A stretch of DNA of 64,000 bases from Halothiobacillus sp. (lineage in GTDB: Bacteria > Pseudomonadota > Gammaproteobacteria > Halothiobacillales > Halothiobacillaceae), in the NCBI GenBank assembly GCA_020061705.1, contig JAGUXT010000055.1, forward strand, positions 124,001 to 188,000, read 5' to 3'. The notes under the pieces were generated by a model. It saw only the letters and a program-made list of their open reading frames with translations. It searched no databases and was not told the origin of the DNA. Each line of letters begins with the position of its first letter. The first letter of the stretch is position 1. This document shows, one piece after another, positions 17,901 to 19,806 of this stretch. A program made the translations under genes and the position numbers.

Positions 17901-18626
17901 TTACACCATGACCGACAGCTGCACGCGGTCGGCACGGAATCGGGTTAAGGCATACTCGACGGGCTCGCCGGTCGCCTCGGAAACATTCAAACTTTTGACG
18001 CGCAACACAGGGCTGTTCTGTGGCATGGATAAAAGTTGCGCATCGTCACCTTGGGGTAGGGTGCTGGTAATCAGGCTTTCGATGCGGCGCAGGTGGAGAT
18101 TGAGATGCTCGGCCAAAAAGCTGTGCAGCGAGCCGCCGCTGTAATGACTCAGCGGCTCATCAAACTCCTTGGCTGGAAAGAAGTGCGACACCAAACAAAA
18201 AGGCAGGCCATCGGCGCGGCGGCGGGTTTCAATAAACACCACATCCTCGTTCTCGCGCAGATTCAAACGCCGCGCCACGCCTGCGCTGGCGGGGGCGATG
18301 ATATGGTTCAGAATCTCGGTGTCGGTGCTCAAGCCGCTACCTTCGAGCTGTTCGGTAAAGCGGGTTTTGGCGTTGATCGCGTAATCAATCATGCCCAGCA
18401 CGAACGTGCCGCTGCCATGACGGCGCTCGACCAGCCCTGCATCAACCAATAGGTCAACCGCATGACGGATGGTGTGGCGGTTGACACCAAAGCGTGCAGC
18501 CAGAACCATCTCGGAAGGCAAGGCATCGCCGATTTTGTAGCGTTGTTTAATTTCGCCTTCCAGTGATTTGGCAATTTGGCGATAGACATGACCCGTTCGG
18601 TCACGGTTAATGGCGTGGAAGCTCAT
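17901..18626 (-). CDS. phnF: GntR/HutC-family regulator PhnF
   Basis: A 241-residue transcription factor with an N-terminal winged HTH (about residues 12-77; GDALPSEMVLAARFGVNRHTIRHAVDLLVDAGLVERRHGSGTFV) and a C-terminal UTRA ligand-binding domain, the HutC branch. Members of this group next to phn genes act as repressors, sensing a phosphonate-pathway compound or phosphate. It is the first gene of the operon and divergent from rpoH. No ribosome-binding site is visible before ATG 18626, and a palindrome lies 11 bp upstream, so it may be leaderless or weakly translated and autoregulated. Confidence 0.93.
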   Translation of the reverse strand: MSFHAINRDRTGHVYRQIAKSLEGEIKQRYKIGDALPSEMVLAARFGVNRHTIRHAVDLLVDAGLVERRHGSGTFVLGMIDYAINAKTRFTEQLEGSGLSTDTEILNHIIAPASAGVARRLNLRENEDVVFIETRRRADGLPFCLVSHFFPAKEFDEPLSHYSGGSLHSFLAEHLNLHLRRIESLITSTLPQGDDAQLLSMPQNSPVLRVKSLNVSEATGEPVEYALTRFRADRVQLSVMV

Positions 18627-18636
18627 GGAGATTTGT

Positions 18637-18648
18637 ATAGATGTCTAT
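18637..18648. promoter_or_regulatory. Palindrome ahead of phnF, candidate PhnF operator
   Basis: ATAGA-TG-TCTAT is a perfect inverted repeat inside TTGTATAGATGTCTATTTC, 11 bp upstream of the phnF start. TATAGAC-type half sites are known for PhnF/HutC-type regulators, so this is a reasonable operator candidate. No binding evidence is available from sequence alone. Confidence 0.45.
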
Positions 18649-18752
18649 TTCGATGCACCTATTTTCCATAAATAAATCTAATGGTGTGTGAAGTTTTGGT
18701 GAATTTTTTATGAATGCAGATAAATACTGGGTTCGCGGAACAAAAGACGAAT

Positions 18753-18782
18753 TTGGCACTCTGAGGCTTGGAGTGCTAAATT
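18753..18782 (+). promoter_or_regulatory. CIRCE element overlapping the rpoH promoter
   Basis: TTGGCACTC-N9-GAGTGCTAA at 18753-18779 differs by one base from the HrcA operator consensus TTAGCACTC-N9-GAGTGCTAA. The same bases form a sigma-70-like promoter, TTGGCA (18753) - 18 bp - TAAATT (18777-18782), so a bound repressor would cover both promoter boxes. The rpoH start follows 32 bp later. Confidence 0.82.
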
Positions 18783-18813
18783 CATTCCAGATATTTCATT
18801 GAGGAGACTCAAC

Positions 18814-19677
18814 GTGTCATTCACCGATCAACTTCCTGTTCTACAAACTTCGATTCACGACTCGCCGCGCGAGGCGTTGACGGCGTATCTGGCTGATTTG
18901 CGCAAAATTCCGATGCTGGATGCCGACGAGGAGTATCAGCTGGCCAAAAAGCTGCAAGATCACCAAGACCTTGAAGCGGCCAAGCAGTTGGTTATGGGGC
19001 ATCTACGGTTTGTGGTGCATATTGCGCGCAGTTATAGCGGTTATGGCTTGCCGTTGGGTGAGTTGGTGCAGGAGGGCAATATCGGTCTGATGAAGGCCGT
19101 GCGTCGCTATGAACCAGATCGTAAGGTACGTCTGATTACTTTTGCCGTACATTGGATTCGTGCCGAAATTCACGAATTTATTATGCGCAACTGGCGTATG
19201 GTGCGCGTTGCGACCACCAAGGCGCAGCGCAAGTTGTTTTTCCGTCTGCGGGGCATGCGTGAAGGTGAGCATTGGTTGACCCAAGACGAGGGCAAAGCGA
19301 TTGCTGATGAATTAAACGTACCTCTATATGAAGTGTTCGAAATGGAATCGCGTTTGCTGGGGCGTGATGTAGGTATTGATGCAGACAATGAAGATGAGGC
19401 GCATCTTGCTCCGGCGGCTTGGCTGGAGGCTTCGGATGCGGATCCTGCTTTAACACTGGAGCGTGTCGATAGTCATTTTCAGCAACTTGATCAGTTGGAT
19501 AGCGCGGTAGATCAGTTGGATGCGCGTAGTCGCGAAATTGTGCAGCGTCGTTGGTTAGCTCAGGGTGACAAGGCAACGTTGCATGAACTTGCCGCCGAGT
19601 ATGGTGTCTCTGCAGAGCGGATTCGTCAGATCGAGCAGGCGGCGATGAAGAAGATGCGAGCATCCTTGACAGCTTGA
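18814..19677 (+). CDS. rpoH: Heat-shock sigma factor RpoH (sigma-32)
   Basis: A 287-residue alternative sigma factor for heat-shock genes. Region 2 (LRFVVHIARSYSGYGLPLGELVQEGNIGLMKAVRRYEP) and the RpoH box QRKLFFRLR are diagnostic, and region 4 HTH (YGVSAERIRQIEQAAMKKMR) is intact. The start is GTG 18814, with GAGGAG 7 bp upstream; an in-frame TTG at 18799 overlaps the ribosome-binding site. In relatives rpoH follows ftsX directly; here it is alone, with a CIRCE-overlapped promoter and its own terminator. Confidence 0.97.
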   Translation: MSFTDQLPVLQTSIHDSPREALTAYLADLRKIPMLDADEEYQLAKKLQDHQDLEAAKQLVMGHLRFVVHIARSYSGYGLPLGELVQEGNIGLMKAVRRYEPDRKVRLITFAVHWIRAEIHEFIMRNWRMVRVATTKAQRKLFFRLRGMREGEHWLTQDEGKAIADELNVPLYEVFEMESRLLGRDVGIDADNEDEAHLAPAAWLEASDADPALTLERVDSHFQQLDQLDSAVDQLDARSREIVQRRWLAQGDKATLHELAAEYGVSAERIRQIEQAAMKKMRASLTA

Positions 19678-19779: not shown

Positions 19780-19806
19780 AAAAAACCCGCTTGATGCGGG
19801 TTTTTT
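19780..19806. terminator. Bidirectional intrinsic terminator between rpoH and the cco genes
   Basis: AAAAACCCGC-ttgat-GCGGGTTTTTT: a 10-bp stem with A-runs and T-runs on opposite sides, so it can stop both rpoH (plus) and the converging cco transcript (minus). Confidence 0.9.

Follow-up and report, generated by a model that had tools for sequence, protein, structure and literature searches.

What is usually taught about control of the heat-shock sigma factor comes from E. coli, which lacks HrcA, and the window analyzed here (a 64,000 nt stretch of DNA from a Halothiobacillus sp.) raises the question of whether rpoH could be under the control of the HrcA repressor in this organism. HrcA is a repressor that is kept active by GroEL in Bacillus and acts as a thermosensor in some epsilon groups. 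In the window, rpoH, encoding the heat-shock sigma factor σ32, is an open reading frame at 18814-19677 (+ strand) with a GTG start and 287 encoded amino acids, and its identity was confirmed by a profile search (TIGR02392, 373.8 bits, cut-off 323.1). The gene is preceded by a ribosome-binding site, GAGGAG, read from the sequence at 18801-18806 (+), and followed by a probable terminator, AACCCGCTTGATGCGGGTTTTTT, identified by eye at 19784-19806 (+). A terminator-like match at 18768-18790 was taken as chance.

Upstream of rpoH, a predicted 27-bp HrcA operator (CIRCE) was found at 18753-18779 (+), composed of a left arm, TTGGCACTC, at 18753-18761, a spacer at 18762-18770 and a right arm, GAGTGCTAA, at 18771-18779 (full sequence TTGGCACTC-TGAGGCTTG-GAGTGCTAA). 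It ends 34 nt before the rpoH GTG (18814), and its single mismatch to the consensus TTAGCACTC-N9-GAGTGCTAA is a G at position 3 of the left arm. This site is the only match at ≤3 mismatches within the window, where 0.00 were expected from 100 dinucleotide shuffles, and none of 2440 shuffled rpoH regions came below 4 mismatches; a chance origin was therefore rejected. The sequence-only reading, which had reported a near-perfect CIRCE on the rpoH promoter, was thus borne out, except that of its coordinates (18753-18782) only the start holds; the operator stops at 18779, and 18782 is the end of a -10-like TAAATT. Only two CIRCE sites (≤3 mismatches) were found in the whole 2.27 Mb genome, the one at rpoH and a perfect one at groES.

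The gene for the repressor, whose absence had been named as fatal to HrcA control of rpoH, is present in this genome (TIGR00331, 299.9 bits, cut-off 197.2; Pfam, 4.4e-60; profile searches). The perfect CIRCE, which had been proposed as a further check, is located at C42:45407-45433, directly upstream of groES (45484), so that the well-known HrcA/CIRCE control of groESL, which uses this operator and presumably this repressor, is represented here as well. A σ32-type promoter (CTTGAAA-N13-CCCTAT), one mismatch from the σ32 consensus, is found just before the groES CIRCE, and because of this combination groESL is predicted to be under both RpoH-type and HrcA-type control. Genome-wide, the σ32 pattern gave 23 matches as compared to 10 for the reversed control and is too noisy for use beyond groES. 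Autoregulation of rpoH by σ32 was not supported, as the best match in 18600-18850 had 4 mismatches. The placement of the promoter at groES differs from that at rpoH; at groES, CIRCE follows closely after the promoter -10, while the rpoH CIRCE contains the promoter boxes. Among groES CIRCE sites (L001, L259-L289), a conserved TATnA immediately precedes the left arm, whose first T completes the hexamer TATnAT.

The hrcA gene itself is part of the gene order glgA-hrcA-grpE-dnaK-dnaJ (L325 3819-6499, contig C43 of the same genome), with its start overlapping the glgA stop (ATGA), and the whole-genome search (≤3 mismatches) found no CIRCE at hrcA. In another genome, G003 (L323), hrcA also directly follows glgA and carries no CIRCE, whereas in G002, which belongs to the same genus, hrcA is preceded by a CIRCE with two mismatches (L324 640-666). 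HrcA autoregulation thus seems to have been lost in the sublineage that includes G003 and the genome of the window.

Further analysis covered 132 gammaproteobacterial genomes, one per family and each ≥90% complete, 122 of which had rpoH; CIRCE with the N9 spacer was counted at ≤3 mismatches within 600 nt upstream of rpoH. A CIRCE was found upstream of rpoH in 84/91 genomes with HrcA as compared to 5/31 genomes without (Fisher p = 2e-15; 122 genomes), a comparison in which the one-per-family sampling lessens the effect of shared ancestry without removing it. In this sample, the constancy of rpoH as a predicted HrcA target comes close to that of groESL, since a groES CIRCE (≤2 mismatches) was found in 29 of the 30 HrcA-positive genomes tested. 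In a set of nearest relatives, the rpoH CIRCE was present in 31/33 HrcA-positive and 3/21 HrcA-negative genomes; the nearest named relatives, the metagenome-assembled genomes Halothiobacillus neapolitanus SulCav and Gammaproteobacteria bacterium 28-57-27, both carry it 34 nt upstream of the matched start of rpoH. A CIRCE (≤3 mismatches) was also found upstream of rpoH in 64/66 further beta- and gammaproteobacterial loci, mostly from Nitrosomonas, and in 0/12 more distant loci (L071-L082), mostly alphaproteobacterial. Taken together, these sequence comparisons support the initial proposal of HrcA control at rpoH.

HrcA could nevertheless bind at rpoH and matter little, with translation and protein stability setting RpoH output as in E. 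coli and HrcA trimming basal transcription. E. coli does depend on translation and stability control without HrcA, and the RpoH encoded here retains an RpoH-box-like stretch, QRKLFFRLR, which in E. coli RpoH belongs to post-translational control. However, the near-perfect operator has been kept in 84 of the 91 HrcA-positive families, and conservation this strong suggests that it is worth keeping; we consider a minor role of HrcA unlikely.

A number of genomes depart from this distribution. Seven HrcA-positive families have no standard CIRCE at rpoH, and G125, which is HrcA-positive, has a site with an N8 spacer. Five HrcA-negative genomes bear an rpoH CIRCE, and for some of these the absence of HrcA may be an assembly gap. 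In one genome, G042 (L162, L290), neither an HrcA match nor a groES CIRCE was found, yet it carries a one-mismatch CIRCE at rpoH; HrcA may have been lost recently or be missing through a gap in the assembly, or the site may have been retained as a promoter. Within the family of the window's own genome, HrcA and the rpoH operator are absent throughout genus g3 (ten genomes). Upstream of rpoH in one of these, G006, the sequence CCCGCACTC-N7-GAATGCTAAAAT follows GGGAACC (L144). Both G006 and G095 (L164), the latter also an HrcA-negative genome, show deletions in the spacer or an arm of the rpoH CIRCE and have kept GGAAC/TGAACTT and TGCTAAAAT; the G006 site reads as an eroded operator within a kept promoter, and that of G095 appears similar.

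The claim that CIRCE covers both the -35 and -10 boxes of rpoH was supported by comparison across families as well as by a consensus scan. In the window, a σ70-type -35, TTGGCA, at 18753-18758 (+) is located inside the left arm, and an extended -10, TG-C-TAAATT, at 18774-18782 (+) begins in the right arm, with an 18-nt spacer after TTGGCA. This TTGGCA-18-TAAATT promoter has 9/12 consensus matches and a TG before the -10, which is weak alone, as 0.5 such sites occur per shuffle. An alignment of 91 rpoH operators, one per family, showed that conservation reaches beyond the palindrome. The right-arm TAA runs on to nnT (TAAAAT, TAATAT or TAAACT) in 63/91 rpoH sites, and the third base after CIRCE is a T in 81/91 rpoH sites as compared to 4/19 groES sites; in a separate set of Nitrosomonas-type sites, it is a T in 63/63. 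Together with the preceding TGC, TAAnnT forms an extended -10 (TGCTAAnnT), 18 nt from the left-arm TTGGCA or TTAGCA. The G at position 3 (TTGGCA) was found in 26/91 rpoH sites, as compared to 2/91 for the right-arm mirror position.

The alignment also revealed a layer that the sequence-only reading had not seen: the operator sits inside a conserved pair of predicted promoters, one of them of σE type. A conserved GGAAC(TT), matching the RpoE -35 GGAACTT (PMC8103513; PMC4890791), begins 16 nt upstream of the CIRCE left arm across the 91 families, and the last two bases of this arm, followed by T-n-A, read TCTNA, which gives GGAACTT-N16-TCTNA, the form of a σE promoter. The corresponding sequence in the window is GGAACAA-N16-TCTGA, with the -35 at 18737-18743 (+; 5/7, two mismatches to GGAACTT) and, after the 16-nt spacer, the -10 at 18760-18764 (+), whose TC is common with the CIRCE left arm; relatives of the same genus have GGAACTT, GGAACCT or TGAACTC as the -35. 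Using an external consensus, a σE match with ≤2 mismatches was found in 67/88 CIRCE-bearing regions as compared to 7/34 regions without CIRCE and 9% of shuffles, and the best match was at an identical offset in 49/88 CIRCE-bearing regions. Since CIRCE itself supplies the TC of the -10, the independent evidence for σE consists solely of the -35 and the T and A positions, the -35 foremost. The genome encodes rpoE (TIGR02939, 268 bits, cut-off 236.15).

The overlap of operator and promoter also raises the question of whether the palindrome has been kept as a core promoter and not for HrcA binding. While the right arm does form the extended -10, the left arm does form part of the σE -10, and G042 does keep its rpoH CIRCE with neither HrcA nor a groES site, positions that are superfluous to the promoter (GCAC, GAG) hardly vary, and the full palindrome is gone in 26/31 HrcA-negative families even though promoter parts can persist, as in G006 and G095; this explanation is thus very improbable. 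Inverted repeats can act at the RNA level, but a role of CIRCE in the rpoH mRNA, as a hairpin or as an element affecting stability, in place of one as an operator in the DNA is hardly credible, because starts from either predicted promoter would fall inside or after the right arm and the palindrome would not be transcribed in full.

We therefore regard it as very probable that the rpoH CIRCE functions as an HrcA operator placed within a compact pair of promoters, through which HrcA would block both promoters until released by chaperonin titration. From the arrangement of the sites, we infer HrcA binding, repression by occlusion, use of both promoters with their start sites, and dependence on GroEL. 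Transcription of rpoH would be driven by the σE-type promoter (18737-18764) and the σ70-type extended -10 promoter (18753-18782), and HrcA bound to 18753-18779 would cover the σE -10 and both σ70 boxes, occluding both promoters. A folding load that titrates GroEL would lead to loss of HrcA activity and to joint release of rpoH and groESL, RpoH would further drive groESL from its σ32-type promoter, and recovery of GroEL would re-arm HrcA and close the loop. σE would add an input from envelope stress, open to veto by HrcA, and rpoH could thereby sense both chaperonin load and envelope stress. The proposal that two heat-shock circuits are wired in series is consistent with this link at rpoH; the circuits are not only in series, though, as groESL has its own σ32-type promoter and CIRCE, which would make the wiring a feed-forward loop, presumably with feedback from GroEL.

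A CIRCE upstream of rpoH is itself already known, from Geobacter sulfurreducens, where the site is given at -51 (PMC545781, Table 8). The two systems have the same operator, the same target gene, a similar distance to the start codon and a groESL CIRCE in common; unlike here, G. sulfurreducens belongs to another class, its hrcA-grpE-dnaK-dnaJ genes bear CIRCE, and the passages considered describe no σE promoter or nesting at rpoH such as is predicted for the window. The σE-dependent P3 promoter of E. coli rpoH (PMC8103513) has the same form and spacing (TGAACTT-N16-TCTGA as compared to GGAACAA-N16-TCTGA here); no CIRCE is present upstream of E. coli rpoH, and the HrcA profile search of an E. 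coli control genome gave no match. Because the layout recurs in most relatives that still have HrcA, it is the E. coli arrangement that looks like the exception. In the HrcA and rpoH literature covered here, mostly through titles and abstracts, neither the class-wide pattern nor the composite layout was found to be described, though earlier accounts may exist.

Should the composite promoter function as proposed, most of the HrcA-bearing gammaproteobacterial families sampled would control rpoH transcription by a chaperonin-sensing repressor and σE, both inputs being combined in a single element of 46 bp, and E. coli would have a simplified layout. We give an even chance to the broader proposal that rpoH, with a constancy close to that of groESL, belongs to the core targets of HrcA throughout the gammaproteobacteria sensu lato (including beta lineages), that HrcA directly gates the σE promoter at rpoH, such that a full rise of RpoH under envelope stress would need titrated chaperonin, and that E. 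coli-like lineages lost this gate with HrcA and kept only the σE promoter.

Divergent from rpoH, and with a common intergenic region, phnF is located at 17901-18626 (- strand) of the window (TIGR02325, 224 bits). A sequence at about 18633-18647, TGTATAGATGTCTAT, resembles a GntR-type operator for phnF, and the genes behind phnF resemble a phosphonate ABC transporter.
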